DNA from: a virus
Virus record (IMG/VR): IMGVR_UViG_3300020204_000344
Span: 1 to 25,166 of that record
Strand: one strand, 5' to 3'
Length of the DNA stretch: 25,166 bases
The notes under the pieces were generated by a model. That model saw only the letters and a list, made by a program, of their open reading frames with translations. It was not told the origin of the DNA and did no database searches. Position 1 is the stretch's first letter. Each line of letters starts with the position of its first letter. Positions 4,516 to 25,166 of this stretch are shown piece after piece. The translations under genes and the position numbers were made by a program.

Positions 4516-6144
4516 TTATCGTAGATAAATTTCTCCATCATTTGTATCTCCACTTGGGCCATAGAACGCATCTCTGCTTGGACTCATTGGAGACATCATT
4601 TGATTTCCCCATCCAGCATAACTTCCTAAAACAGGGTATGTATAATTAGAAGACTGCTGACCCCCACTATAACTTGCTGGGCCTATAGGATTAGCCAAAT
4701 AATCCGCATATGTATTCCAACCATTTGGCATGTCTGCAGTTGAAGACGGTGTATTAGAATTCCAGTCAGCATCACAGAAGAAATAATCAACCCCAGCACC
4801 AACTCTCATTCTAAAAACTTTATATGAAGGTGATGTATTTTGTATTAACCAATTTATATCACTATCGCTATACTTGCCTCTTTCAGTTGCGGGATTTCCA
4901 ACTGCAGCAGTAATTCCGGCAAGTTGAACTCCTCCAGTATTTCCGCCATTCATAACTCGCATCCATCCACCACCATCAGTTGTCATATCACAATAAACCC
5001 CATAAACACCACTACCCATTTGAATCCAATAAATTCCATCTTTTGATTCCGGAAAATCTTGAAGAATTTGCCAGGCGCTTACTCCTGGAGTAGTTTGTGT
5101 TCTACCGTCTCCTGGTCTGCTTGTACCCGTATTTGCATAATAACGGACAACTACAATACCAGTTCCTCCTTGGCCGCCTTGGTTATTTGACTGATAGTGC
5201 GCACCGCCGCCGCCACCGCCGCCTGTGTTTGCACCAGCAGGAGATCCAGGAGTATTTGCCCAGGTGTTGGTGCCACCACCAAAACTATTTGCTCCTGCAT
5301 TTAAGGCTCGTCCTCCACCGACAGGACCACCAACAGCACCGGCTCCTCCACCGCCGATTCCACCATCGCCACCCGAACCACTATATCCTGCACCACCTCC
5401 ACCACCACCCCAGTGATGAGCAGCACCTACAATATTTGAAAATCTACCTTTTCCACCGCCTGCTGGAACCCAAAATCCAGCTTGACTTGCTCCTCCACCG
5501 CCACCTGGATACCATGCATAATAAGACCATTGCCCAGAGTATCCTTGACCTGCTATACCTGATCCGGCAGCACCACCATAATTACCAGCAGAATATCTTC
5601 CACCAGATCCTCCTCCACCGCAACCACCGTTACCGGCCGGATAACTATTTGTATCGTGATCAGATGCTCCACCACCGCCGCCAGTAGCAGTTAAATTAAT
5701 AGAAGTGCCTGTAATAGAAGAACTTCCACCGTCACCACCTCTTGGGCCATTAGTTCCGGGGCCGCCACCACCGCCACCGCCTCCTACAGACACATTGAGG
5801 GTTTCAGATGTTGCAGTATTAATCAATGGATCAGAAGTGGTGAAATTATAGACACCACCACCGCCTCCGCCGCCGCCCATGTCACAGCCGCCACCACCGC
5901 CGGCGGCGACGATTAAATACTCTAAATAAGCACTATTAGTACCTCTAATTTGACGAGTATTTACCCAATGAATGGTGTTTGTAACTGTCATTGATGAAGC
6001 ACCCGTAGATGTCCATCTGTTAGATCTTAGACGATTTGCAAAATCAGTAGTTGCATTTCCACCAGAAACAGACCCAACTTTTCTAATATTATGTCCTGTA
6101 ATTCTAGGTAAAGATCTATTTTTAGATAAGTTAAAGACAGTCAT
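4516..6144 (-). CDS. Glycine-rich tail adhesin with C-terminal fibrinogen-like domain
   Basis: The 542-residue protein has three parts. Residues 1-75 form an N-terminal region (SKNRSLPRITGHNIRKVGS) that probably attaches it to a fibre or baseplate. Residues about 78-335 are very rich in glycine, with runs of GGGGGGGG and motifs such as GPRGGDGG and GNGGCGGGG. This resembles the glycine-rich domain of marine phage proteins and the polyglycine-II adhesin of Salmonella phage S16 gp38. Residues about 355-542 start AWQILQDFPESKDGIYWI and contain VYGVYCDMTTDGGGWMRV, the hallmark start of a fibrinogen C-terminal domain, which binds sugars in other proteins. Together these suggest a host-receptor-binding tip. 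GC is much higher in the glycine part. A tail-assembly-chaperone-like gene precedes it; oxygenases follow. Confidence 0.82.
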   Translation of the reverse strand: MTVFNLSKNRSLPRITGHNIRKVGSVSGGNATTDFANRLRSNRWTSTGASSMTVTNTIHWVNTRQIRGTNSAYLEYLIVAAGGGGGCDMGGGGGGGGVYNFTTSDPLINTATSETLNVSVGGGGGGGGPGTNGPRGGDGGSSSITGTSINLTATGGGGGASDHDTNSYPAGNGGCGGGGSGGRYSAGNYGGAAGSGIAGQGYSGQWSYYAWYPGGGGGASQAGFWVPAGGGKGRFSNIVGAAHHWGGGGGGAGYSGSGGDGGIGGGGAGAVGGPVGGGRALNAGANSFGGGTNTWANTPGSPAGANTGGGGGGGAHYQSNNQGGQGGTGIVVVRYYANTGTSRPGDGRTQTTPGVSAWQILQDFPESKDGIYWIQMGSGVYGVYCDMTTDGGGWMRVMNGGNTGGVQLAGITAAVGNPATERGKYSDSDINWLIQNTSPSYKVFRMRVGAGVDYFFCDADWNSNTPSSTADMPNGWNTYADYLANPIGPASYSGGQQSSNYTYPVLGSYAGWGNQMMSPMSPSRDAFYGPSGDTNDGEIYLR

Positions 6145-7068: not shown

Positions 7069-7359
7069 TTATGATCTTAAAGGGGGATCGGAAAGAAGAT
7101 ATTTTAGTGCTACAACTTTACTCAATGTAGTTGTAGCATCAATTCCTGTTAATCCAGAAGCATCACCAAAATAAGACGAAGAATAAAGAGTATTAGAAAT
7201 AGAAGTATCTACATTTATAGTTTGGATCGTTGAAATTCCAGAAACATTAAGATTCCCATAATTATTAATTATATTTTGCCCAATATTAATTCCTTCTGGA
7301 AAAGATGGAGGAGATTCTCCATTAGAACCAACTATAGAGTCTACTTTAATATCGATCAT
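7069..7359 (-). CDS. Small tail-fibre-like paralogue 3 (96 aa)
   Basis: This is one of three adjacent related proteins. It starts IDIKVDSIVGSNGESPPSFPEG, has a central NVSGISTIQTINVDTSI and then SYFGDASGLTGIDA, and ends SKVVALKYLLSDPPLRS. The DASGLTGI element equals the GDGSGLTGL turn of its neighbours and of many phage fibre proteins. The start overlaps the preceding stop in ATGA. It is probably a small virion or fibre-associated protein. It is the most diverged copy, with NIGQNIINNYGNLNV where the others have PPxGTLxVNG. Confidence 0.7.
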   Translation of the reverse strand: MIDIKVDSIVGSNGESPPSFPEGINIGQNIINNYGNLNVSGISTIQTINVDTSISNTLYSSSYFGDASGLTGIDATTTLSKVVALKYLLSDPPLRS

Positions 7360-7646
7360 GATCTAAATGGCAAAGGATCTATAATCATTTTAAGTGCGAC
7401 AACTTTACTTTGATTTACTGTAGGTAATCCAGTCAATCCAGATCCATCTCCAACAAATGATGTTGCAGTGATAGTTTGGGATAAAACAGTATCTGCTTGA
7501 ATAGATTGAAGTGTTGAAACACCGACAGTGTTTATACTTCCATTTACAGTTAAAGTTCCACCAGGTGGTATAACGGCGCTATATGGAAATATTGGAGCTC
7601 CTGTATCAAATCTATTTACAATTGAATTTACTTTAATTCTTGACAT
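7356..7646 (-). CDS. Small tail-fibre-like paralogue 2 (96 aa)
   Basis: The middle of the three paralogues. It opens SRIKVNSIVNRFDTGAPIFP, shares PYSAVIPPGGTLTVNG with the next gene to the right, then has VGVSTLQSIQADTVLSQTI, SFVGDGSGLTGLP and the closing SKVVALKMIIDPLPFRS. The common ending SKVVALK-(x)-DP-P-RS joins it to paralogue 3, and the PYSAVIPP block joins it to paralogue 1. No clear ribosome-binding site is seen; the start lies nine bases after the previous stop. Likely a virion protein of the fibre cluster. Confidence 0.72.
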   Translation of the reverse strand: MSRIKVNSIVNRFDTGAPIFPYSAVIPPGGTLTVNGSINTVGVSTLQSIQADTVLSQTITATSFVGDGSGLTGLPTVNQSKVVALKMIIDPLPFRS

Positions 7647-7655
7647 AATTTTTTT

Positions 7656-7934
7656 TTAAAATATTAAAGATAAACCAACTACTTTTGAATCATTAACTAT
7701 TGGCAATCCTGTTAATCCAGAACCATCTCCTACAAATGCTGTAGCAACAATAGATTGAGAAACAACAGAATCTACTCTTAAATCTGCCATTGTAGAAACT
7801 CCGACAACATTTATATTTCCATTAACATTAAGAGTTCCTTCTGGAGGTATAACAGCACTGTATGGAAGTTCTGGAGAAGAAATTCCATATACATCAACAA
7901 TACTATCTACTTTAAGTTGTGATTTTTCTATCAT
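7656..7934 (-). CDS. Small tail-fibre-like paralogue 1 (92 aa)
   Basis: This copy reads KSQLKVDSIVDVYGISSPEL, then PYSAVIPPEGTLNVNG, VVGVSTMADLRVDSVVSQSI, AFVGDGSGLTGLP and SKVVGLSLIF. It ends earlier than its neighbours and lacks the DPxPxRS tail. The start lies four bases after the upstream stop with an A-run and no good ribosome-binding site, so coupling is likely. Its similarity to paralogue 2 along the whole length points to duplication of one small structural gene. Confidence 0.72.
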   Translation of the reverse strand: MIEKSQLKVDSIVDVYGISSPELPYSAVIPPEGTLNVNGNINVVGVSTMADLRVDSVVSQSIVATAFVGDGSGLTGLPIVNDSKVVGLSLIF

Positions 7935-7938
7935 TTTT

Positions 7939-8241
7939 TTAAGTTATTAATGTTAGAGCAATTGCCTTTCCATTCGGAAGTCCAGGAATATTAGTTAATC
8001 CTATAGCACCTGCAACACCAGTAAATGTAGTTGCTGTACAAACTCCAGTAATATTAATAGTTTGTGTATTTAATGTTGGAGCAGTCAAAATACCAGTAGG
8101 AGAACTAATACCAATTCCGAGACGAGTTGTGCTTTGTGTGGTAGTCTCAAAAGATACATTTTCTGGAAAAGTGACTCCTTTAGTAAATTCTACAGGACCA
8201 TCTTCAAGACTTGTTATTTTATTAACTCTAAGTGTTGACAT
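7939..8241 (-). CDS. Small virion/fibre-like protein (100 aa)
   Basis: A GGAGA site six bases before the ATG supports the start. The protein begins STLRVNKITSLEDGPVEFTKG, contains RLGIGISSPTG and the fibre-type segment QTINITGVCTATTFTGVAGA, and closes NGKAIALTLIT, which echoes the SKVVALK end of the three genes downstream. It may therefore be a more distant member of the same group. The INITGVCTATTF element is the 'l.VtGVsTATsF' strand repeat seen in marine phage tail fibres, including the 2610-aa protein here. Confidence 0.7.
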   Translation of the reverse strand: MSTLRVNKITSLEDGPVEFTKGVTFPENVSFETTTQSTTRLGIGISSPTGILTAPTLNTQTINITGVCTATTFTGVAGAIGLTNIPGLPNGKAIALTLIT

Positions 8242-8676: not shown

Positions 8677-11600
8677 TTATTTATCAAGTTTTGCTTTTAG
8701 TTCATTAACTTCTTTTTGAAGTTCTTTAACTGCTTCAATCAGAATACCAACTAATCCATTATAGTTAACAGACTTAGTTTCACCTTGACCAATGAGTTCA
8801 GGAAGAACTTTTTCGACTTCTTGAGCAATGACACCCATAGAAGGTCTCTTTGTTTCTTTCCAATCAAATCTTACACCCTCAATTTCAGTAATGAGATCTA
8901 GAGAGTTTTCAATTAGTCTTATATTGGTCTTGAGATTAGCATCAGATGTTGCATTAAAGTCAGTGGCAGTTGCAACTCCCGTAACAGTTAATCCAGCATT
9001 AAACTCAACATGACCTGTGAATGTAGGAGTATTTGTAAGATTATATGCTGATCCATTTCCAATTAGAATTGAACCTACCTGAGGAACTCCATTTAATCCA
9101 GTACCACCTCTGGTAATTTGAACAACACCAGTGTGATTATTTGCACTGAGATAATATGCACCAGATTGTCCACCAAGAGTGGAAGCATCGACATCACCTG
9201 TATTAGAGTTTCTAATTCCAACAGCACCATTTGAGCCAATTTCAAATGTCGATGACTTAAATCTCGCAATACCTAAAGTTGAATAGAGATCAAGGGAAGA
9301 TTCAACTCTATTTGGTTCAATGATTATATCTCCATAATGAGTATTAACTCCAACACCACCCGGTGCAAGATCTTGAGATGTTGATTGAATTTGTAATGGT
9401 GTTGTTGTTCCAATACCAACAGATGTTGCAACTTTTTTGAATGAAGAATCACCTGCAAGGAAAGTGAAATCTGTTGCAGAACCAGATCCAAGTCTTGTTG
9501 GTGAAACTATACCGGTTACAATATTTGCAGCATCAATGTCCTGCTTAGCAAGCAATGACCAGTTGCTTTCAATTGATGATGAAGTATTAACCGTGGCACT
9601 ATACTGGACATTTTGCTTAGTAAATGTGAGTGTAGTTGCAGAACCAACTGTTGTAATTCCAACAGCGTTCAGAGTAAATCCATTAACAGATGCAGTTGAC
9701 TCAGCACGAGTTCCATGCAGTGTAAATGAATTTGTAGTTGCAGAACCAACATAGTAGAATGATCCAACACTAAGACCAGTTGGAGCACTACCAGTCAGTT
9801 TTACAGGATCACCAGTTACAAATCCATGATCTTCAAAAATAATTGTATTTTTATCTGTATTGATTGGTGTTCTGGTTAAAGAATGAGTTCCAGTTCCACT
9901 AGAAAGAAGAGTTACGATAGAAGACAATCCATAAGTTGGATGGAGTTCAATAGAACTAACTCCAACTTTCTTAATATAATATGTTTGGCCATCGGTTAAC
10001 CCACCTATACCATTTCCACCTTCTGAAGAATAAACAACAGGATCTCCATTATCAAGGTTTGTATTATCAACAATTATCCTATATGTCGTAAAGTCAACAC
10101 TACCACCCGTCAAATAGTTGGTTGGAGAGAATGTAACTGCTAGTCCAGCATTATTTACGGTCGTTTGTATTCCAATTGCATCTCCATCAGAAACAAAATC
10201 TGGTAATGCAGCTGTTCCTGGGAATTTGGCACTGTTAGTCAAAGACATGTACAATCTAGTTTGTACATCGTCTATTTTAATCGTAAAGTTTGATCCATTA
10301 GATCTTCCACCAATTCTACTTGGATCATTAATTGTTAAAATATCATCAGATTGATAATACCTACCACCAGTTTCAATGCCAACTGCTGTCACATTTCCGC
10401 CGGCACTAATTGTAACTGTTGCAAGAATATCAGTACCAATACCAGTAACTGTGTCAAGTAAGATGGATGTATAAATTCCGGGGTTAGTATATCCAGAACC
10501 ACCAGAAAGGGTCTTGAGACTTAATGCGACACCCTTTACAAGACCGGTTGTTCCATATCCAACATAAGTTGGAGCAGTAACAATACCAATTGCAGTTCCA
10601 GCAGATAGAGCACTAATTACTTCATCTCCATTTTGGAAATTATAATTTCTTGTATCTGTATCGAGAATTAAGAACTCACTCAATGTATCATTTACAAGTA
10701 CAAATGAATTTTCTGGTTCAACAACAGTATCACCTTGCTTAATATTTGCTGCTGGAATTCTGTTTACAAGAGTTGTTTTTGCACCGTTTACATTTGTAGT
10801 AATAAAGTTAACAACTTTTGGTGGAATAAGGTCTGGGTTAATTTGACCATTACTGTTCAATTGAACAACAGAATTTGGAATTGCACTTGTAGAAACAGTC
10901 TTATCGATAAAGTCGCCAAGTCTGTTATTCAAGAAAGATCTTACTGCCAATTGAGTAGAAACTCTCCTATTAAGAGGCCCTCCAATTTCTCCTTCACCTA
11001 AGTTCTGATCTGTTGAGAACTCTTCAACAACAACACCACCAGAAAGACTCAATCTAAGAGAATCTAACTGGCCAATAGTAACTTTATTATTGAAGATGAT
11101 ATTACCAGTTCTGTTGAAAGCAGTAATAAAATCTCCGATCTTAAAGTCTCCAAGTTCGTTAGTACCTGAGGCATAAACACGACCACCTAACTCGGAAACT
11201 TGTTCTTTAGCATAATCCGTTTTACCACCATTTTGAGGAAGTGCATTATAATCAATTCCAGAACCAGCATATTCCCAAGTGTGAGAAGATGAGTTAATAA
11301 TAGATGGACGATGGAAGTGTATATAATAGTTCTCAGGTAAAGTGCTAATACCAATAATTACATTTCCTGGTTGAGTAGAATCAACTTTAAATTCTGATGT
11401 CCAATAATCAGATCTACTCTGAACTGCGGTTAGTCCAACAGAAACGGGTGATGGACTGTGATCAACAATTGGATTTCCTGTAGTAGAGAAGAATCTTCTA
11501 GATCCAGCAACAGATTCGACAGAAACAATAAGTTCTCTAGTAGATGAACTATATGTCAAAGCAATACCAGTTGCAGTTCCCGTAGGAAGTGTCTGAGTAA

Positions 11601-14600
11601 TTTGTCTACCTGAAACAAATACTAATGGATTAGCAGTAGAACCAAGACTAATTGTTTGATATGAGTTGTGTTTATCAATAACTTCATTTACAATAAACTC
11701 TTGATTATTTCCAACAAAAGTATTAATACCAACAAATGTTGAACCTAGCGCCACAAGAGTTTCTAGTCCTTCATCTTCATAGAGTCTAAATGATGATGCA
11801 TTAATATAACCAATATAGTAGACGTTTCCACTTATAAGACCATTAATTTGAATTGGTGGATCTACACTTTCATCCCCATAGTAAACCACAGACTCTTCAT
11901 TTTGGAAAGGATGTCCAGGAATAATAAAGATATCATTTACATCATCAACAGCAACACCAGTAAATTCCTGAGTCGTTACAAGTGGTTTAAAGAGTGATGT
12001 TTTATCTTCTAAGTTGCTGTTAAGGAACTTAAGAATAAAGAGTTCTTGATCTGCTCTACCTAAACCAACTGCTTTCAGCGTCTGAAGTCCACCACTAACA
12101 CCAGTAGCCGTGATACGACCACGGTCAAACCCGAACGAATTTCTACTATAACCAGTAGATCTTAAAGCATAAAGACCAAAGTTAGTTGCGGAGTTGGTAA
12201 TTGAGAGGTAACCACCAGACTGAGTTAATGATCCATAACGGCAGAAAATTTGGAAGCAAGAAACAACCTGTGCATAACCGTCATTAATTGTTCTCCAACC
12301 AACACCACCAAATGAAATCATGGTGAATGTTGCCGCAACCATTGACTTACCAAACTCTGGTTGGTCGCCAACGGGTGGTTTTTCGCCTAATTCTGGAATA
12401 ACAGCCTTGTTTGGTGAAAGAACTTTATCACCATCAACAAGAATACCATTACCACCAAGAGAAGAAATAATAGAACAGTTTTGAATATACGGAGACTTAT
12501 TAATTACGGGTTTTGAAAGTCTCGCAGTGCCGTCCTGAACATAATAATGAGCCCAACCATTTGTATGAGGTTCTGTCTTAATCTCAAAAGTATAGTCATT
12601 GATAACTTTACGAACTGGAAAATCCTTTTGTCCACTAGAAAGTTTCTCTGGATATCTCCAAACTTCTTGAACAATTGGAACTCTACGAACAGTACCACCA
12701 CCAAGATAAGTATGAGGTATAGTTGAAATGCCTGCATTATAAACAAAAGTAGTGCTGTCGGGAACTGAAGTGACTACAAAAGTATAACCATCATTTGATG
12801 CACTAGTTACCGTACCATCAGGGAAGAAGTCTGTAGTAATACCGGATCCACCTGGGCAGGTAAATTGAAGCATGGATGGTGCAATTCTATCACCAACTTT
12901 GAAACCGTGTGCTGATGCTGTTACTGCAGTAGAAATACCAGTAGTATTTGTATAAGCAAAAGTACTAATTGCAACTGTTGGCCAACCCTCGTAAATGTGA
13001 GGAATTGTTGAAACACCAGCATTAAAAGTTACTGTTTTTGCTGCAGTATTGATGCCAGTAATAGTGAATACTCTTCCATATTGACTTGTTCCATCTGGGA
13101 AGATAGTTGTTGTTACACCTGCGTGCTCTGCTCCACATGAGAATGGAAGATTTGCAAGGAACAATTCATCATCAATCTTATATCCCTGATTTCCCGTTTC
13201 TCCAAATAAAGCACTACTAAAGAAAGTAATTGTAGATACGCCAGTTGTGTGATCATATGCAAAGGTATTAATACCAACTTCATCATACCCACAAGTAAAT
13301 GCCAAACCAGCAAGACGAACTGTTAGATTTCTATAAAGTTCATGCTCTTGTTGGGTAGTAACCGTTGCAATCCCAGTAATGTGATTATACTTAAAGTCAG
13401 TAACAGTTAGTATTCCAGGGCAAGCATATCCAGTCCTGTCCACATTTGAATTAAATGGATCATCAAATGCAACAGAATATTCAAAGGTATGTTGTGGAAC
13501 TTGAGTCGATGGGTCAACATAATCATTAAATGTCATTCCTGTGATATAACAGGCACTTCTTAGTTTAAATAAATCCTTACCAGCATTTAGAGGTCTAACA
13601 ACAATATTTCTAAGAGAGTCACCAATAATAGAAACATCATCATAAACAATGATTGGGTTATCTTCAATATATTCTCCAGTCTCAACATAAATGGTTACTC
13701 TTTGCCCAATCTTAGAAGCTAATTGAGTTGCTTTTTTGAGAGTTCTGACTGGCAAAATACTGCCGTCGTTCTCATCATCACCATTTGCCTGAGAAACTCT
13801 AATCACATAATCAGAACCACCAGCACCTCCAGTTTTGAAGGATAGATTACCAAATCCATCAGTCGTTACAACTTGACCTGGTAAGCCATCTGCAGTTGGA
13901 AATGAAAGTCCTGCACCAATAACTCTACCAGCAGTAACGATTCCAGAAACATTTAGATGATCAATATCAACAGTACCAGCACCCGAAATAATTAAGTTTT
14001 GGAAACTACCGATTCCAGAAGAAACCTTGTTATTTGTTCCATCCAAAACAACATTTGAACCAACTATAAGTGTTTCTGTAACTCTTTCATTACCAGTAAC
14101 AAGAAGTTCGGTATTACCAACTCCAAGACGAACACTCTTGAATGCATTTGTGCCAGCAACATGAACATCATTTTCGAAGGTAGATATTCCAGTTGCTCTT
14201 AAGTGATTAACTCTTGATGTATTTGTATGAAGTGTTACATTGTTGCCAATATTAAGAGTATTTGTATCTCCATTGATGGTAACTGTTCCAGAACCAACTG
14301 TCAATACTCCAACAATTTTAGCATCACCTTCAACAATTATATCGTCTTGAACTCGAATATCGTTAAAAGTAGATCCACTAGAAACATTAACTGTGTTAAA
14401 CTGAGCATGATCTGTTACATTTAAGTCATTAGATGTAGTAATTCCAAGTACATTTACATAATCTAATTTAAGGTTACTTCCTTCGGAATCATATCGAACA
14501 ATATCTAATATTGATTCATTAGAAATGAAAGATGCATTGGCATCTGATATATCGATGATAATTGAATCACGAACATTATACAGTGTACTAAACCCAACAA

Positions 14601-16509
14601 CAGAAGATGTTGGGATAGCAGATCCAATACCACTACTTATACTAACAGCTGGTCCTTCAACAAAAATATACTGTGTAAATGATACTGCAGTTCCTGTAGA
14701 AATTGATGTCCCTACAGTATTTGCAGTTCCAATAACAACAGCATTAGTAATTGGTGTAACAAATGTACTAAATCCAACTGTGGTTCCAGTACTTATTGAA
14801 GCACCATGAGTATCTGCGATACCAATTAAAACTGCATCACCAACGCGATTTGTTTGAAAATCATTTACTGTAACTAGAGTACCTGTTGATATTGTTGATC
14901 CATATGTATCGCCAGGATCTATTCCAATATAAGTATCCCCAACACTGACAATTGAAATATTATTAAATATCCCATCAATCAATAAATATTGACTTGTTGT
15001 TATTCCAGTTGGAGGAGGAGTAATATAAATTGTAGTTGATGCTGCGCCAACAGTTGTTGAAATTGAAAATGTATTTGAAGGAAAATAAGCATCAGGAAGA
15101 GATACTGTAGTTAAACCGACAATTTCAACATTATCAAATATGCTATCAATATTCAAATATGGATTATTGTAACTTGTAGATGGACCAATATTTACAGGTA
15201 TTATAGTAGATCCGAGGCCAACAGTAGTTGATATCCCAGTTGAAGAAAATTGCTGATAAAATGATGGCAAATTAAGTGTTGTTAAATCAACTATAGGAAC
15301 ATTTGTTATAATACCAACTGTAGATGCTGGTGTTACTGTAATAGATCCACCCATATTACTATGATTCTCACAGACATAATAATAAGTGCCTACAGTTTGA
15401 GGTGTCCAGGTTAATGTTCCAGATTGAATTCCATTATTTGTAATATTTTCAGTTACAACATTTGCTGGATTATATGCTCCTGGAGATGTTTGAATCCAAA
15501 AAGGATGACCAGATGCATTAATATTTAAAATTAAAGTATCTCCGGCATTTATTGTGATTGCTAGATCAGTTCCATTAATTTGACCAGTAAAAACATAATC
15601 AGAAAAACCAAGATTATTAACAGTAGCTGCAATAGAAACTGGATTTTGTGATTGATTTACTGAAATATAATCTCCAGTTTCTATACCAGCAATAGAATTT
15701 ACGCCTAAAATTGTGGATCCAATAGCTACTGTAGTACTTATTCCGGTAGTTCCAATTACACCAAATATATCAGTAGTTACGGCAATTGTAGTGATACCTG
15801 TTACTTCTATATTTGTTAAGTAACCGTCAATTGTTATATAATTGGTCAAATCAGTGTTAATTGATCCGGTAGATGCAATACCTATTATTGTAGAATTAAT
15901 TCCAGTAACAACAGTTGTTGTTGTTTGAGAATAAGGAGAATAATATGGAATAACAGTTACTGTACCAAATCCTATTATAGATACATTATTATAATATCCA
16001 TCAAGATACAATCTATCATCAACTATTAAAGAATCTATATTATTAACAGGAATTACAGTTGTAAATGGAGTTAACTCAGTCTTTATAATTTTCTGAAAGG
16101 AATCCAATAAAATTGGATCATCAGTAATTCTAATTCTACTAGAGCGAATTGTTTCTGCGCTAATTACATCGTTAATACCATCAATAGTAATAGAAGAAGA
16201 ACCTACAGTAAGGACACCAGTAACTCTAGCATCACCTTTGACAACAAGTTCAGTATTTCCTATACCTATTGTTATACCAGTTGTGCTAGATATTCCTACT
16301 GTATTAACGGTCAATTCACCATTAAACTCAGCACTACTTACATTATTCAGATCAATCCTAGCCAACTCTTGACCAGCAGTAGTTATGCCATTATGTACAT
16401 GAACAGAACTATTAGTTGTATTTACTGTTACTTCACCTGGAGCTCCCGTGAATGCCTGATGTTCAGCGGCTGTTCCTCTTCTAAATTGAACTCTTTTGGT
16501 ATTCGCCAT
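8677..16509 (-). CDS. Giant tail fibre (2610 aa) with cupredoxin-like domain and S74 chaperone
   Basis: Residues 1-55 (RVQFRRGTAAEHQAFTGAPG, VHNGITTAGQE) are a fibre N-terminal domain of the Mtd/phage-fibre type. Residues about 100-750 hold repeated beta units (ISTTVGxxSTxIxV, LxIDGIFNNIxIV). Inside them, about 303-395, is a cupredoxin-like domain with His335, Cys380, His383 and Met386. Residues about 900-1005 begin a pectate-lyase-like beta-helix (NGDDENDGSILPVRTLKKAT, TIYVETGEY). The end from Ser2522 (SDANLKTNIRLIE, MGVIAQEVEKVLPELI, then a coiled coil) is a peptidase-S74 intramolecular chaperone. It should trimerise the fibre and cut itself off before Ser2522. Repeated low-complexity beta sequence and an exceptional length indicate a long trimeric host-recognition fibre. 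Confidence 0.9.
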   Translation of the reverse strand: MANTKRVQFRRGTAAEHQAFTGAPGEVTVNTTNSSVHVHNGITTAGQELARIDLNNVSSAEFNGELTVNTVGISSTTGITIGIGNTELVVKGDARVTGVLTVGSSSITIDGINDVISAETIRSSRIRITDDPILLDSFQKIIKTELTPFTTVIPVNNIDSLIVDDRLYLDGYYNNVSIIGFGTVTVIPYYSPYSQTTTTVVTGINSTIIGIASTGSINTDLTNYITIDGYLTNIEVTGITTIAVTTDIFGVIGTTGISTTVAIGSTILGVNSIAGIETGDYISVNQSQNPVSIAATVNNLGFSDYVFTGQINGTDLAITINAGDTLILNINASGHPFWIQTSPGAYNPANVVTENITNNGIQSGTLTWTPQTVGTYYYVCENHSNMGGSITVTPASTVGIITNVPIVDLTTLNLPSFYQQFSSTGISTTVGLGSTIIPVNIGPSTSYNNPYLNIDSIFDNVEIVGLTTVSLPDAYFPSNTFSISTTVGAASTTIYITPPPTGITTSQYLLIDGIFNNISIVSVGDTYIGIDPGDTYGSTISTGTLVTVNDFQTNRVGDAVLIGIADTHGASISTGTTVGFSTFVTPITNAVVIGTANTVGTSISTGTAVSFTQYIFVEGPAVSISSGIGSAIPTSSVVGFSTLYNVRDSIIIDISDANASFISNESILDIVRYDSEGSNLKLDYVNVLGITTSNDLNVTDHAQFNTVNVSSGSTFNDIRVQDDIIVEGDAKIVGVLTVGSGTVTINGDTNTLNIGNNVTLHTNTSRVNHLRATGISTFENDVHVAGTNAFKSVRLGVGNTELLVTGNERVTETLIVGSNVVLDGTNNKVSSGIGSFQNLIISGAGTVDIDHLNVSGIVTAGRVIGAGLSFPTADGLPGQVVTTDGFGNLSFKTGGAGGSDYVIRVSQANGDDENDGSILPVRTLKKATQLASKIGQRVTIYVETGEYIEDNPIIVYDDVSIIGDSLRNIVVRPLNAGKDLFKLRSACYITGMTFNDYVDPSTQVPQHTFEYSVAFDDPFNSNVDRTGYACPGILTVTDFKYNHITGIATVTTQQEHELYRNLTVRLAGLAFTCGYDEVGINTFAYDHTTGVSTITFFSSALFGETGNQGYKIDDELFLANLPFSCGAEHAGVTTTIFPDGTSQYGRVFTITGINTAAKTVTFNAGVSTIPHIYEGWPTVAISTFAYTNTTGISTAVTASAHGFKVGDRIAPSMLQFTCPGGSGITTDFFPDGTVTSASNDGYTFVVTSVPDSTTFVYNAGISTIPHTYLGGGTVRRVPIVQEVWRYPEKLSSGQKDFPVRKVINDYTFEIKTEPHTNGWAHYYVQDGTARLSKPVINKSPYIQNCSIISSLGGNGILVDGDKVLSPNKAVIPELGEKPPVGDQPEFGKSMVAATFTMISFGGVGWRTINDGYAQVVSCFQIFCRYGSLTQSGGYLSITNSATNFGLYALRSTGYSRNSFGFDRGRITATGVSGGLQTLKAVGLGRADQELFILKFLNSNLEDKTSLFKPLVTTQEFTGVAVDDVNDIFIIPGHPFQNEESVVYYGDESVDPPIQINGLISGNVYYIGYINASSFRLYEDEGLETLVALGSTFVGINTFVGNNQEFIVNEVIDKHNSYQTISLGSTANPLVFVSGRQITQTLPTGTATGIALTYSSSTRELIVSVESVAGSRRFFSTTGNPIVDHSPSPVSVGLTAVQSRSDYWTSEFKVDSTQPGNVIIGISTLPENYYIHFHRPSIINSSSHTWEYAGSGIDYNALPQNGGKTDYAKEQVSELGGRVYASGTNELGDFKIGDFITAFNRTGNIIFNNKVTIGQLDSLRLSLSGGVVVEEFSTDQNLGEGEIGGPLNRRVSTQLAVRSFLNNRLGDFIDKTVSTSAIPNSVVQLNSNGQINPDLIPPKVVNFITTNVNGAKTTLVNRIPAANIKQGDTVVEPENSFVLVNDTLSEFLILDTDTRNYNFQNGDEVISALSAGTAIGIVTAPTYVGYGTTGLVKGVALSLKTLSGGSGYTNPGIYTSILLDTVTGIGTDILATVTISAGGNVTAVGIETGGRYYQSDDILTINDPSRIGGRSNGSNFTIKIDDVQTRLYMSLTNSAKFPGTAALPDFVSDGDAIGIQTTVNNAGLAVTFSPTNYLTGGSVDFTTYRIIVDNTNLDNGDPVVYSSEGGNGIGGLTDGQTYYIKKVGVSSIELHPTYGLSSIVTLLSSGTGTHSLTRTPINTDKNTIIFEDHGFVTGDPVKLTGSAPTGLSVGSFYYVGSATTNSFTLHGTRAESTASVNGFTLNAVGITTVGSATTLTFTKQNVQYSATVNTSSSIESNWSLLAKQDIDAANIVTGIVSPTRLGSGSATDFTFLAGDSSFKKVATSVGIGTTTPLQIQSTSQDLAPGGVGVNTHYGDIIIEPNRVESSLDLYSTLGIARFKSSTFEIGSNGAVGIRNSNTGDVDASTLGGQSGAYYLSANNHTGVVQITRGGTGLNGVPQVGSILIGNGSAYNLTNTPTFTGHVEFNAGLTVTGVATATDFNATSDANLKTNIRLIENSLDLITEIEGVRFDWKETKRPSMGVIAQEVEKVLPELIGQGETKSVNYNGLVGILIEAVKELQKEVNELKAKLDK
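8678..8685 (-). promoter_or_regulatory. Late-promoter-like GATAAATA overlapping the giant fibre stop
   Basis: The minus strand reads TGATAAATAATAT across the stop codon of the 2610-aa gene, and the same 13 bases recur across the stop of the 1302-aa gene at 16616-16628. The next ATG is about 32 bases downstream. The repeated context makes chance less likely than for a lone 8-mer. Confidence 0.5.
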
Positions 16510-16620: not shown

Positions 16621-16628
16621 TATTTATC
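16621..16628 (-). promoter_or_regulatory. Late-promoter-like GATAAATA overlapping the 1302-aa gene stop
   Basis: GATAAATA begins within the TGA stop of the 1302-aa gene, in the same TGATAAATAATAT context found at 8673-8685. It would give the giant fibre gene a leader of about 105 bases. Confidence 0.5.
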
Positions 16629-19600
16629 ATATAATATAAATTCTTGTTGTAGTTGGGGGTTCATATTCAACATATCTATCTTGAGACTTACCTCTAAGAA
16701 TAATATTTCCTTCTTCTTTAAAGGATCCTTGTACATATGCTTCTAAAGCAGACCCACCAATAATAAAGAGAACTTTGGTAACATTGTAAATTGCAGTAAA
16801 TACCTCTGCAGAACCGCTGAGAGTATCAATTGATCCCGATCCATTATATGCTTCAGTGTTTCTTTCTGCTGCTGTACCAACAAAAGTAAATACAGTTCCT
16901 CTAATAGATGGTACGAATAGAACAGATTCTTCTTTGCTATTAAACATAGCAAGAGATCCGGATCCAATATGGACATCTGGTGTAAAGGATTCTTGTGCTG
17001 TTCCAATAATATCAAACAATCCAGAAGCAATCGTTTTAAGTTTGAATACAGTAGTTGCGGATCCATTAACTTCAAGAGTTCCTTTTCCAATCTCAGATCT
17101 ATTGAACTTAGTCTCAGACTCACCATTAACTTTAATAGTTCCAATAGTCTCAACATTTGAAACCTTGGATTCTGTTTTACTAATAAAGGTAAAGATGATA
17201 CCAGAACCAATGTGTCCCTGGAGTGTACTTTCTTCAGTTTTTCCATCAAGATTAACAAGACCATTGCCAACATGCTTGTTAGCAAACTTAACTTGTGACG
17301 ATCCAAATACCTTGAATAGACCTGTTGTAGATACAAACTTAGTTCTAGATTCTACTCCACTAGAGAATTCAAAGAGTCTACCTGAACCTCTGTAAGATTC
17401 GACATTCTTCTCAATCGCAGATCCAGTAACTTTAAAGAGTTGTGGGGTTTCTGGAGGATTAGATCCTGATACCTCAGCAGCACTAATGAATGTAAAGATT
17501 GATCCAGAACCAACATAAGAATCTCTACTCTTTTCAATTGCAGATCCAGTGATCTTGAAGAGACCCGTTGTTTTTGCAAAGTAAGTGAGTGATTGAGTAG
17601 AACGACCAAATTCAAAGAGTCTACCTGAACCTCTGTAAGATTCGACATTCTTCTCAATTGCAGATCCAGTAACCTTGAAGAGACCAATAGTTGAAACAAA
17701 CTTAGTTCTAGATTCCGCAGATTTAATAAATGTGAAGAGTGAACCAGAACCAATATGAGGATTGGCTCTTTTCTCATTAAGAGAACCAGAGATCTTAAAG
17801 AGTTGTGGGGTTTCTGGAGGATTAGATCCTGATACCTCAGCAGCACTAATGAATGTAAAGATTGATCCAGAACCAATATGATTAAGACTAAAGATTGTAG
17901 TTGCCTTATCATTAATGTCGAATAATCCAGATCCAATATAAACCTCTGTATTCTTCTCAACAGCAGATCCAGTAATCTTGAAGAGTTCAGTAGATTCTGA
18001 TGGGTTTGAAGTTATGGTTTCGGAAGATCCAATGAAAGCAAAGAGCGATCCTGTACCAATGTGCGGTGCTGGAGTTCTAGACTCAAGACCTCTACCAGTA
18101 ATCTTGAAGAGTTCAGTAGATTCTGGTGGATTAGATCCTGATACCTCAGCAGCACTAATGAATGTAAAGATTGATCCAGAACCAACATAAGAATCTCTAC
18201 TCTTCTCAACAGCAGATCCAGTAATCTTGAAGAGTTCAGTAGATTCTGGTGGATTAGATCCTGATACCTCAGCAGCACTAATGAATGTAAAGATTGATCC
18301 AGAACCAACATGTGGGGATGGTGTCGTAGACTCATTAGCAGAGTCATTAACATTAACAGATCCAGAACCAATGTGGCCAAGTTTGAATATAGTAGTTGCA
18401 GAAGAATCAATATTAATGATTCCTAATCCAGAATGATATTCTGTATTCTTCTCAACAGCAGATCCAGTAATCTTGAAGAGTTCAGTAGATTCTGGTGGAT
18501 TAGATCCTGATACCTCAGCAGCACTAATGAATGTAAAGATTGATCCAGAACCAATAAATGGTGTACGAATATATGATTCATCACCTTCACCAGAAACTTT
18601 AACAGATCCAGATCCAATATGCTTAAGTCTAAAGATTGGGGTAATCTTTTCACCAATAAAGATTCTACCAGAACCAAAGTAAGATTCGGTGTTCTTTTCA
18701 ATGATAGATCCAGTAATTTTGAATAGTTCAGTAGATTCTGGTGGATTCCAAATAACAGTTTCTACTTGAGTAAAGAATCTAATATCTGGATTAATATTCT
18801 TATCAATTACATTACTAATGGTTGCCGATCCAGAACCAATATATCTAAGTTTGAATATAGTAGTTGCTTTATCACCAATTCTGAATAGAACTTTACCAAA
18901 TTCTTTTGGAGTTGAATCAATCTCAGCAGCAGAACTGAATGTAGCAACACCAGATCCAGAATATGGATATACTTTATCAAACTTATCATCTGCACTACCA
19001 CCAATCTTAATCTTACCATATGGAATCAGAGTTCCATCTGGTTCTAAGAATCCATAATCTTCTTGCTGCCATGGATAATATGAATCTCCAGAAAGCAATC
19101 CATAGTCTTCTTCAGATATTGGTGATTGATTAATAAATCCATAATCATCGCCAAATGTACCAACATAAGCTGATTCATTATAAACATAAGTTCTCTTTTC
19201 AACCTTACTAGAGAACTTAAAGATTGATCCGGAACCCGACCAGTCAAATAGTGCTGTTGTATAAACAGAACCACCAATCTTAAATAGTCCTCTACCGGTT
19301 TCTCTTGGTTTTGCAATTGCATAAGCATTTCCATTGAGATTTAACCTTCCGGAACCAATAATCCTTGAGGATAGTTTTTCTGTCGCATTACCACCAATCT
19401 TAATCTTACCATATGGAATCAGAGTTCCATCTGGTTCTAAGAATCCATAATCTTCTTGCTGCCATGGATAATAAGTACTTTCTAATAAAGATCCATAATC
19501 ATCCTGATCAACTATAGCATCTGCAATTGATCCATAATCATCGCCAAATGTACCAACATAAGCTGATTCATTATAAACATAAGTTCTCTTCTCAACCTTA

Positions 19601-20535
19601 CTAGAGAACTTAAAGATTGATCCAGATCCCGACCAGTCAAATAGTGCTGTTGTATAAACAGAACCACCAATCTTAAATAGTCGTCCTCTACCGGTTTCTC
19701 TTGGTTTTCTAATTGCATAAGCATTTCCATTGAGATTTAACCTTCCGGAACCAATAATCCTTGAGGATAGTTTTTCTGTCGCATTACCCTCAATATTAAT
19801 ATTGCCATATGGGAAGATTGATTCATTATTCGTTATGAATCCATAATCTTCTTGCTGCCATGGATAATAAGTACTTTCTAATAAAGATCCATAATCATCC
19901 TGATCAACTATAGCATCTGCAATTGATCCATAATCATCGCCAACTGGATTTACTACAGATGATTGATTATAACTTACTGTTATATTTTCTAGACCACCAG
20001 AAAGACCTAGTAATGATCCTACTCCCTCATAAGAAGCAGTTTGTTTTTGACTGGAAACTCCATGCGCGACCAGATAACCAGAACCATATATGAGTGGAAG
20101 AATCGCAACATCAGAATTTCCTGATAGGGAAAAACGGACTCCACTAATAATTGATATTCTGGTTAAACTTTCTGCAGGTGTGTTATTGATTGCATAAAGA
20201 ATTCCAAATGGCCTTAAAGTCGTATTATTTGTTATTAACCCATAATCTTCTTGTTGCCATGAATAATAAGTATTATTTGCAATTGATCCATAATCCTCTT
20301 GATCAACTATGGCGCTTGTAATTGATCCATAATCATCACCATCGGGCCCTACTATTGATGATTCATTATAATCATACGCTATACTTTCGCTTAGTTCTCC
20401 TTTTGAATTCAAGATCTTACTTGAACTTGTGGAAAAAGTAGATACTATAAAATCTGCATATGTGCTAATCTGCTCATCAGCAACATCTGCAATGGTAAAT
20501 GGTATTCTTTCAGCAATATATGAGTAAACTGCCAT
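16627..20535 (-). CDS. Large repetitive virion protein (1302 aa)
   Basis: The N-terminus (YSYIAERIPFTIADVADEQI) is unique; the rest is built of repeats. Residues about 60-520 contain blocks of DDYGSIxxAIVDQxDYGSL and PWQQEDYGF, alternating with YGKIKIGGxATEKLSSRIIG and GSGxLNLNGNA. Residues about 520-1220 are repeats of the form GSGSIFTFISAAEVSGSNPP, ESTELFKITGSAVEK, with a glycine-serine turn and two beta strands per unit. This is the look of an extended fibrous virion protein, and its place just upstream of the giant fibre suits a tail-fibre component. No enzymatic domain is seen. At DNA level several repeats are nearly identical, which implies recent duplication or ongoing homogenisation. 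Confidence 0.82.
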   Translation of the reverse strand: MAVYSYIAERIPFTIADVADEQISTYADFIVSTFSTSSSKILNSKGELSESIAYDYNESSIVGPDGDDYGSITSAIVDQEDYGSIANNTYYSWQQEDYGLITNNTTLRPFGILYAINNTPAESLTRISIISGVRFSLSGNSDVAILPLIYGSGYLVAHGVSSQKQTASYEGVGSLLGLSGGLENITVSYNQSSVVNPVGDDYGSIADAIVDQDDYGSLLESTYYPWQQEDYGFITNNESIFPYGNINIEGNATEKLSSRIIGSGRLNLNGNAYAIRKPRETGRGRLFKIGGSVYTTALFDWSGSGSIFKFSSKVEKRTYVYNESAYVGTFGDDYGSIADAIVDQDDYGSLLESTYYPWQQEDYGFLEPDGTLIPYGKIKIGGNATEKLSSRIIGSGRLNLNGNAYAIAKPRETGRGLFKIGGSVYTTALFDWSGSGSIFKFSSKVEKRTYVYNESAYVGTFGDDYGFINQSPISEEDYGLLSGDSYYPWQQEDYGFLEPDGTLIPYGKIKIGGSADDKFDKVYPYSGSGVATFSSAAEIDSTPKEFGKVLFRIGDKATTIFKLRYIGSGSATISNVIDKNINPDIRFFTQVETVIWNPPESTELFKITGSIIEKNTESYFGSGRIFIGEKITPIFRLKHIGSGSVKVSGEGDESYIRTPFIGSGSIFTFISAAEVSGSNPPESTELFKITGSAVEKNTEYHSGLGIINIDSSATTIFKLGHIGSGSVNVNDSANESTTPSPHVGSGSIFTFISAAEVSGSNPPESTELFKITGSAVEKSRDSYVGSGSIFTFISAAEVSGSNPPESTELFKITGRGLESRTPAPHIGTGSLFAFIGSSETITSNPSESTELFKITGSAVEKNTEVYIGSGLFDINDKATTIFSLNHIGSGSIFTFISAAEVSGSNPPETPQLFKISGSLNEKRANPHIGSGSLFTFIKSAESRTKFVSTIGLFKVTGSAIEKNVESYRGSGRLFEFGRSTQSLTYFAKTTGLFKITGSAIEKSRDSYVGSGSIFTFISAAEVSGSNPPETPQLFKVTGSAIEKNVESYRGSGRLFEFSSGVESRTKFVSTTGLFKVFGSSQVKFANKHVGNGLVNLDGKTEESTLQGHIGSGIIFTFISKTESKVSNVETIGTIKVNGESETKFNRSEIGKGTLEVNGSATTVFKLKTIASGLFDIIGTAQESFTPDVHIGSGSLAMFNSKEESVLFVPSIRGTVFTFVGTAAERNTEAYNGSGSIDTLSGSAEVFTAIYNVTKVLFIIGGSALEAYVQGSFKEEGNIILRGKSQDRYVEYEPPTTTRIYII
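17451..18553 (-). repeat. Five near-identical 62-bp repeats inside the 1302-aa gene
   Basis: Copies lie at 17451-17512, 17814-17875, 18123-18184, 18246-18307 and 18492-18553. They encode FTFISAAEVSGSNPPE-type units. Spacings (363, 309, 123 and 246) are all multiples of three, so gain or loss of units keeps the frame. The DNA identity is higher than needed for the protein, pointing to recent copying. Confidence 0.88.
19139..19788 (-). repeat. Long tandem duplication (about 255 bp) in the 1302-aa gene
   Basis: The segment 19139-19392 recurs at 19532-19788 with few changes, offset by 393 bases (131 codons). The left copy differs by an in-frame three-base deletion (GRGLFKIGG against GRGRLFKIGG) and one codon (AIAKPRE against AIRKPRE). 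A neighbouring 69-base block at 19013-19081 is also repeated at 19405-19473. Confidence 0.88.
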
Positions 20536-23798: not shown

Positions 23799-24455
23799 TT
23801 ATTTAGTTTTCAATCTATAAATGTAGATATGTTTTCCTGGTGTTTCAATATACTTTGCATCTCCTTTTGCCAAAGCATCTTTTACACGCTGTGCGAATGG
23901 TTTTAATTTTTTATTTCCATCTTTATCCACATAATAAGTTCTAATACATTTATCATGATAAGTTCTATCTTCGTATTTTATAATTCTTCCCTTTGAAGTA
24001 AGACCACCATATTCAAAATTTGATGCCTTATATATTGTCCCCTGATGATTGTGAAAGGTATCGGCATATGAAATAATAATTTTATAATCAGTGTTCTTTT
24101 TTAACCATTTTAAAGTTTTACCAATGAAATAACTTTCAGTATTTTTAGGAGTATTGTCAATGCAGCATAGTCTTCTAAGTTCTATGATTTCATTCTCTGA
24201 GCTAGCATACTTCTTCCAAGTATTTGCCATTCCTAAAGGACCATAAATCATGGCACCAATTAAATTATCCTGATAAAATAATCCAAAGACATTAGAAATT
24301 CTCAGTCCATTTACATTGGAAGAATAATGCCATTTTTTAACGAATTCAGAAACAACTTGAATAGTGGTTGGTTTAACCACAAAGTCTTTTACTTTAATAT
24401 TCCTACAATCTACCTCATCATAGAGTAGGGAAGATAGTGGATTTGACTTCATCAT
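23799..24455 (-). CDS. Mom-like DNA adenine modification protein (GNAT fold)
   Basis: The 218-residue protein shows the pattern of the phage Mu Mom family. Motifs in order are KKWHYSSNVNG (about 40-50), VFGLFYQDNLIGAMIYGPLG (about 56-75), ENEIIELRRLCCIDNTPKNT (about 88-107), then ESYFIGKTLKWLKKN, KIIISYADTFHNHQGTIYKA, SNFEYGG. 'ELRRLxxxDxxxNTES', 'SYAD...HxGTIYxAxNFxYxG' and the HYS opening are the recognisable blocks. Mu Mom is a GNAT-related enzyme that converts adenine in DNA to a carbamoylmethyl form, which blocks host restriction. A C-terminal basic region (KLKPFAQRVKDALAKGDAKY) may bind DNA. The start overlaps the end of the putative endonuclease gene by 38 bases. Modification chemistry here is inferred, not shown. 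Confidence 0.8.
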   Translation of the reverse strand: MMKSNPLSSLLYDEVDCRNIKVKDFVVKPTTIQVVSEFVKKWHYSSNVNGLRISNVFGLFYQDNLIGAMIYGPLGMANTWKKYASSENEIIELRRLCCIDNTPKNTESYFIGKTLKWLKKNTDYKIIISYADTFHNHQGTIYKASNFEYGGLTSKGRIIKYEDRTYHDKCIRTYYVDKDGNKKLKPFAQRVKDALAKGDAKYIETPGKHIYIYRLKTK

Positions 24456-24972
24456 AAGTTTCCCGAATTACTTTTACAATAGTATCATAAAGGTCATCAT
24501 AATCAATACCAATTTTTGACCAGAATGTTTTACCACCAATATACAAAACTCCATCTTTTAAATACTCATATGAATCTCCAAGAGCAGTAACAAAAAATGG
24601 ATTTGTATTATTTTTTATTGTGGTCTCAAGTAATTTATTTAATGAATCCTTTTTATGAGTTCCTGTCTGAGTATTTTTACCAAGTTTCATTTGACCTTCG
24701 CCAAACGAAGATCGAATATCAATACCAAGAGTCTTTTTTTCTTGTTTATCAATATTAACTACATTTTCTCCACATACAGAAGCAACTTCCTGAAGACTAT
24801 TGCCTAAACATGTAGAAAATGTTCTCTCAAAAGTTCCATAAACATTGATTTCAGGAACTACAGATTTTAAAATATTAAGATTTTGAGGATCTTCTTGTAA
24901 GTTTTTTTTAATTTTACAAATTGTTTTTTCTTTAATGGGAATTAAAACTTTGTAAATTTTTGAATCAACCAT
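24418..24972 (-). CDS. Putative PD-(D/E)XK-type endonuclease (184 aa)
   Basis: The start MVDSKIYKVLIP is chosen because in-frame codons further upstream lie in the psbD terminator and promoter. The region GIDIRSSFGEGQMKLGKNTQ-TGTHKKDSL holds Asp85 and Gln94-x-Lys96. With Glu62 in GNSLQEVAS, this fits a variant PD-(D/E)XK active site (D-x8-Q-x-K) like those of some type II restriction enzymes. FFVTALGDSYEYLKDG and GKTFWSKIGIDYDDLYDTI look like later strands and helices of such a fold. The gene overlaps the Mom-like gene, which favours a partner role. By analogy it might cut DNA lacking the modification. It could instead be an unrelated cyanophage protein; the endonuclease call rests on a short motif. 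Confidence 0.5.
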   Translation of the reverse strand: MVDSKIYKVLIPIKEKTICKIKKNLQEDPQNLNILKSVVPEINVYGTFERTFSTCLGNSLQEVASVCGENVVNIDKQEKKTLGIDIRSSFGEGQMKLGKNTQTGTHKKDSLNKLLETTIKNNTNPFFVTALGDSYEYLKDGVLYIGGKTFWSKIGIDYDDLYDTIVKVIRETYDEVKSTIFPTL

Positions 24973-25004
24973 AAAAATAAAAAGGAGACCCTCGGGGAGT
25001 CTCC
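24973..25004 (-). terminator. Rho-independent terminator downstream of psbD
   Basis: GGAGAC and GTCTCC pair over six GC-rich positions around a nine-base loop, followed on the minus strand by TTTTTATTTTT. It begins 31 bases after the psbD stop and runs up to the ATG of the next gene. Confidence 0.85.
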
Positions 25005-25006
25005 TC

Positions 25007-25035: not shown

Positions 25036-25166
25036 TCAAAGAGCATTGCCTCGTGGCAAAACTTCCTCTGGGAATACAAAGTTCTCGTGTGGTTGATCAA
25101 CAGGTGCCATCCAAGCACGGAGTCCTTCGTTGAGAAGAATGTTCTTCGTGTAGAAAGTTTCAAACT
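25036..25166 (-). CDS. psbD: Photosystem II D2 protein, C-terminal end (partial)
   Basis: The last 42 codons are present; the gene continues beyond the right edge. The translation [42 protein letters not shown] matches the C-terminus of D2 (typically [38 protein letters not shown]), not D1. D2 forms the PSII reaction centre with D1 in the thylakoid membrane. Cyanophages carry psbA and often psbD to keep photosynthesis running in infected cells. The reading frame is intact here and ends in a normal stop, followed by a terminator. Confidence 0.97.

Follow-up and report, generated by a model that had tools for sequence, protein, structure and literature searches.

Layout of the locus downstream of psbD

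The window, meaning the whole 25,166-nt stretch that was analysed (positions 1 to 25,166 of virus record IMGVR_UViG_3300020204_000344), carries two overlapping genes on its minus strand directly after psbD, itself cut by the window end. The features of this locus, in the order in which they are read, are:

25036-25166 (-): psbD 3' end, truncated where the window stops; 82% DNA identity to the psbD end of contig L042
25007-25035 (-): sigma70-like promoter TTGACT-17-TATAAT, 11/12 matches, with TG ahead of the -10 element
24982-25006 (-): hairpin and T-run between the psbD stop and the nuclease start; 10-bp stem with 5 GC pairs and a T-rich tail
24418-24972 (-): putative PD-(D/E)XK nuclease, family A; 184 aa
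24685-24720 (-): putative catalytic block D85...E92-G-Q94-x-K96 of the family A nuclease
24418-24455 (-): overlap of the nuclease 3' end with the mom 5' end, 38 nt
23799-24455 (-): mom-like gene, Mom family; 218 aa
23778-23800 (-): intrinsic-terminator-like hairpin closing the cassette; 10-bp stem followed by a T-run

Along the minus strand the psbD stop is followed directly by the promoter, then by the first hairpin, the nuclease start codon, mom and the second hairpin with its T-run. The L042 ORF matched by the window's psbD stretch belongs to Pfam Photo_RC, and the hairpin just past the -10 element probably terminates psbD and insulates the cassette. With its own promoter and a terminator hairpin, the nuclease/mom pair therefore looks like a separate transcription unit. 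Of 22 marine-type cassettes, 13 have a promoter match of 11-12 of 12 positions within the 90 nt preceding the nuclease, compared with 1% of random 90-nt windows from the same contigs; no such promoter is present in the freshwater-type relatives (L001, L012-L015). No methyltransferase gene was found inside the cassette, and the partner of the nuclease is the Mom-family protein. The original prediction, which had described a Mom-like modifier overlapping a possible endonuclease, proved exact in its coordinates, strand and 38-nt overlap (24418-24455), and the near-consensus promoter and terminator that it gave the pair were recovered as the TTGACT-17-TATAAT element (11/12) and the hairpin with T-run at 23800-23778 (-).

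Judged by sequence, 23799-24455 (-) is unambiguously a genuine Mom-family gene, as had been proposed. Its product matches the Pfam Mom family PF25680 at E 2.1e-37 (129.2 bits against a cut-off of 27.1) and phrog_1384, 'Mom-like DNA modification protein', at E 3e-60, and the solved Mu Mom structure 8bv8 aligns to it directly by sequence (E 4.6e-6). In that alignment H43-Y44-S45, S129-Y-A-D132 and Y142 of the window protein stand opposite identical residues. H43, Y44, S129, Y130, A131, D132, Y142 and the block E92-L-R-R-L96 are also invariant among the Mom proteins of seven diverse phages.

The 184-aa protein encoded upstream has no match in Pfam, PADLOC or NCBIfam. It is nonetheless a real ORF under purifying selection, since relatives share 52-75% identity and pairwise dN/dS of the nuclease gene, with the overlap excluded, is well below 1 (~0.04-0.28). 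A PD-(D/E)XK fold had been named beforehand as the check on the endonuclease assignment. An AlphaFold (AF2) model built from 17 sequences (pLDDT 89, pTM 0.84) fits the restriction-nuclease fold, with EcoO109I as its top PDB fold match (Foldseek probability 0.99, E 0.012) and AvaII next, followed by Hjc resolvases, BsaWI and AgeI. Superposition on EcoO109I with VIA gave a moderate match (Z 7.7, rmsd 4.4 over 175 aligned residues). The predicted D85/Q94-x-K96 site lies at the positions first given, and D85, G93, Q94 and K96 are invariant in 17/17 aligned sequences, E92 in 16/17; Q94 stands where an acidic residue is usual, giving QxK rather than (D/E)xK. Three of 13 aligned sequences have weak, sub-threshold matches to the Pfam family RE_EcoO109I (PF14511), the best relative scoring 17.7 bits against a gathering score of 22.5 and the window protein giving no match to this family. 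The moderate Z score agrees with the invariant D85, Q94 and K96 and with these independent weak Pfam matches, and the modelled protein is a probable PD-(D/E)XK nuclease with a restriction-endonuclease-like core. PDB sequence searches with the nuclease or its profile returned nothing real, complement factor H at E ~2 being noise.

Several other genes were observed elsewhere in the window. Four consecutive small paralogous genes (7069-8241 (-); 92-100 aa) have a common GDGSGLTG-type block and are a tandem duplication of a probable tail-fibre-associated module. A 1302-aa protein with many degenerate repeats (GSGSIFTF..., DDYGSI...; 16627-20535 (-)) adjoins a 2610-aa probable tail fibre (8677-16509) whose C-terminus resembles an S74-type chaperone domain, and a 542-aa glycine-rich protein (4516-6144 (-)), which resembles fibrinogen in a stretch close to its C-terminus (VYCDMTTDGGGWMRV), is possibly an adhesin.

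Occurrence and genomic places of the pair

Searches for relatives of the nuclease recovered one of 50,697 phage records, Synechococcus phage DSL-LC03, where the order nuclease then Mom and the 38-nt overlap are also present. In IMG/VR, nuclease searches found 22 contigs and a Mom search added L054 and L058, and about 25 relatives keep the order nuclease then Mom. No relative was found in plasmids, nor in 84,980 bacterial and archaeal genomes covered by two degenerate-motif scans sensitive to close relatives only. Mom is far commoner than the nuclease, occurring in 319 phage records.

The original prediction had made its case depend on the two genes occurring together, and this is what relatives long enough to show it display: nuclease and mom are together in every one. 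Mom lies directly downstream of the family A nuclease in 55 of 56 loci (several loci per contig), the lone exception lying on a contig that stops within the nuclease gene. The overlap is 38 nt in most family A relatives and 32 or 41 nt in a few. Mom can occur without the nuclease, as in S-SSM7, and among the 80 nearest Mom loci 33 show no nuclease of either family described here, in some cases because the contig is short. No nuclease without Mom was found among relatives long enough to show the neighbour. Because the nuclease always occurs with Mom and Mom often occurs alone, the pattern indicates a one-way dependence, as expected of restriction enzymes, which need protectors, and of protectors, which can stand alone.

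The cassette appears to be mobile, occurring at several loci. It follows psbD in the window, lies between psbA and psbD or plastocyanin in L042 and L022, sits between regA and hsp20/DNA polymerase (gp43) in L028, and is ~50 kb from psbA/psbD in DSL-LC03. In L031 a D12 adenine methyltransferase gene lies upstream of it. Given this variety of locations, the psbD neighbourhood named in the original prediction is incidental and was rejected as a functional clue.

Other neighbours of mom were noted during these searches. In L089 and L095 (275-2998 in each) a complete gcvP, encoding the glycine cleavage P-protein (Pfam GDC-P, E 2e-165), overlaps the phage mom start by 10 nt, and this link to glycine metabolism may hint at what donates the group that Mom adds. 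In L091 (2301-3008), L093, L097 and L101 the mom start is overlapped by another, divergent gene of the Mom family (Pfam Mom, E 1e-18), giving tandem Mom paralogues without a nuclease. Immediately upstream of mom in the nuclease-free relatives L110 (1-1005) and L112 is a gene for a radical SAM/SPASM protein. In Geobacillus phage PK3.6 (L003, 2014-3196) an annotated HNH endonuclease gene overlaps the annotated mom start by 59 nt, possibly an independent pairing of Mom with a nuclease. A tblastn Mom match in Microbacterium phages Dropshot, Blett and Appa also touches a neighbour annotated as a ParB-like nuclease or partition protein.

The nuclease has been replaced beside a retained Mom

Scanning Mom loci revealed a second protein family of ~180 aa in the nuclease slot, designated family B, which a dedicated scan found in 28 contigs. 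Its motif D70...E79-x-K81 is invariant, it is followed by Mom in all 48 of its loci (several per contig), and most of its members have the 38-nt overlap. BLAST between families A and B gave 22-31% identity, the lowest E being 6e-5 in a small database, and hhalign gave a probability of 66% with E 5.7e-5 over 83 columns; on these comparisons the two families would be distant relatives at best. The structure model for family B is weak (pLDDT 69) and a fold search gave no firm match, so we call it nuclease-like because of its motif, its position in the slot and its similarity to family A.

Nucleases of the two families are 24-29% identical in protein, yet the adjacent Mom proteins are up to 92% identical. 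The clearest case is the pair L031 (family A) and L066 (family B), which have 82.8% DNA identity over the 908 nt that end at the nuclease start codon, no alignable DNA across the nuclease, 87.6% identity in mom and 97.3% over the 979 nt downstream. In the Mom tree parsimony places 8 changes of the family B label, of which well-supported branches force at least 4. The bootstrap of this tree is not fully settled and some joins are uncertain, but the comparison of the L031 and L066 flanks is independent of it. Within families, too, the nuclease has diverged more than Mom, with mean identities of 60% against 73% among A cassettes and 65% against 85% among B cassettes. The nuclease has thus been replaced in place beside a retained Mom.

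Proposed function and relation to known systems

We propose that the pair is a mobile two-gene modification-plus-nuclease cassette resembling a phage-borne restriction-modification unit, with Mom protecting the phage's DNA and an exchangeable nuclease attacking DNA that is unmodified, and we put the probability of this reading at roughly 0.6. Its nuclease fold is predicted, and we infer the modification chemistry, the cleavage, the protection and the target. By analogy with Mu, Mom would attach its bulky group to adenines in phage DNA, marking many of them rather than one cognate site. The small EcoO109I/AvaII-like PD-(D/E)XK enzyme encoded upstream would cut DNA that lacks this mark, whether the host chromosome, rival phages or both. 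Counted against the proposal are the moderate fold match, the Q94 in place of an acidic residue, the weak family B model, and the position of the nuclease gene first in the operon, which raises the problem of early self-cutting.

The arrangement at several loci, including ones adjoining psbA and psbD, could also be the work of a free-standing endonuclease of homing type, which would carry itself and its neighbour Mom into cassette-free phages by cutting their vacant sites, with Mom as a passenger or a protector of the donor. We considered whether the nuclease is the psbA-linked F-CphI of S-PM2, and rejected this identity because F-CphI uses an Endo VII motif. F-CphI is a cyanophage homing endonuclease, and homing enzymes of the PD-(D/E)XK type form a recognised family (PMC6083498), but the Endo VII motif of F-CphI belongs to another nuclease class. 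Homing does not predict in-place replacement by a divergent nuclease, the nuclease is never seen without Mom, and the window protein matches no Pfam homing family. We regard homing, the main rival, as unlikely.

A role for the nuclease in phage DNA metabolism, such as junction resolution, repair or packaging, with its place beside Mom a matter of operon convenience, seems less likely still. Archaeal Hjc resolvases are among the VIA-align matches too, at Z 5-6, and a Pfam search with one relative gave a weak match to a Holliday-junction-related endonuclease; however, the EcoO109I match is full-length and scores above Hjc. The nuclease is also linked to Mom every time and has been replaced by a divergent protein, and a gene found in a single one of the 50,697 phage records is dispensable to T4-like cyanophages. 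That the enzyme is instead a modification-dependent nuclease attacking the Mom-marked DNA of competing phages, or that nuclease and Mom are antagonists, is very improbable: the 319 phage records with Mom mean that Mom-marked rivals exist, but such an enzyme would cut the phage's own Mom-modified DNA, and its pairing with a strongly conserved Mom is obligatory.

Returning to the modification-plus-nuclease cassette, if Mom acts at many adenines, one Mom could shield against nucleases of differing specificity, so that the nuclease would be exchangeable while Mom is retained. This suggests a bolder proposal, to which we give somewhat less than even weight, of 'one shield, many blades': a broad adenine-modifying Mom may protect against several exchangeable nucleases docked in one overlapping slot, with specificity changed by recombination and no new matching modification enzyme, unlike in classical restriction-modification. 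If true, cutting specificity would no longer be tied to modification in these phages: under a promiscuous protector they could swap nucleases freely, and so possess a quickly evolving means of attacking hosts or competing viruses in the abundant cyanobacterial systems of sea and fresh water. Mom would also gain natural partner enzymes whose inhibition by its mark is directly assayable.

The pairing of Mom with a nuclease had at first been thought new. However, Iyer et al. 2021 (PMC7824862) predicted Mom-REase coupling for jumbo phages, shielding phage DNA and attacking host or superinfecting DNA, so the core idea has already been published as a prediction, and the pair itself is annotated in DSL-LC03. 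Both cases combine a Mom-family enzyme with a restriction-fold nuclease under the same predicted logic, but the jumbo-phage case is described in PMC7824862 as fused domains, whereas the T4-like cyanophages have two separate overlapping genes, an exchangeable nuclease and several locations. In the two jumbo Aeromonas phages checked for such fusions, the AS-zj Mom is 219 aa and the AsFcp_2 Mom protein 294 aa, and family A and B profiles match nothing in the latter. The DSL-LC03 genes WJZ47912 and WJZ47913, annotated 'type II restriction endonuclease' and 'Mom-like DNA modification protein', are homologous to the window pair (54% and 69% identity, with order and overlap kept) and lie at another genomic place; the DSL-LC03 genome paper (PMC10611076) does not discuss them, 'mom' being absent from its text. 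Nuclease swapping around a constant Mom and the mobility of the cassette appear to be new, and an incomplete collection of papers yielded no account of such swapping, of the cassette's differing locations or of the cassette in its unfused cyanophage form.

Family A is like the EcoO109I/AvaII type II enzymes in its predicted fold and its weak sequence similarity to PF14511; it is unlike them in length (184 versus ~270 aa), in scoring below the Pfam cut-off, in having QxK for (D/E)xK, and in being paired with Mom rather than with a cognate SAM methyltransferase. As in type II restriction-modification, the nuclease gene adjoins the modification gene, and the overlap is kept in relatives, but the cassette has no cognate SAM-dependent methyltransferase. 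T4 spares its own broadly modified genome with a hydroxymethylcytosine shield while EndoII and EndoIV degrade host DNA, a combination that the proposed cassette would resemble. The enzymes of the cassette are unrelated to these, its mark would be on adenine where that of T4 is on cytosine, and it is tightly paired and found at several loci. The mom gene of phage Mu is encoded together with com and is not known to have a partner nuclease. The cyanophage Mom is like Mu Mom (8bv8) in family and conserved residues, and differs from it in having a nuclease partner.
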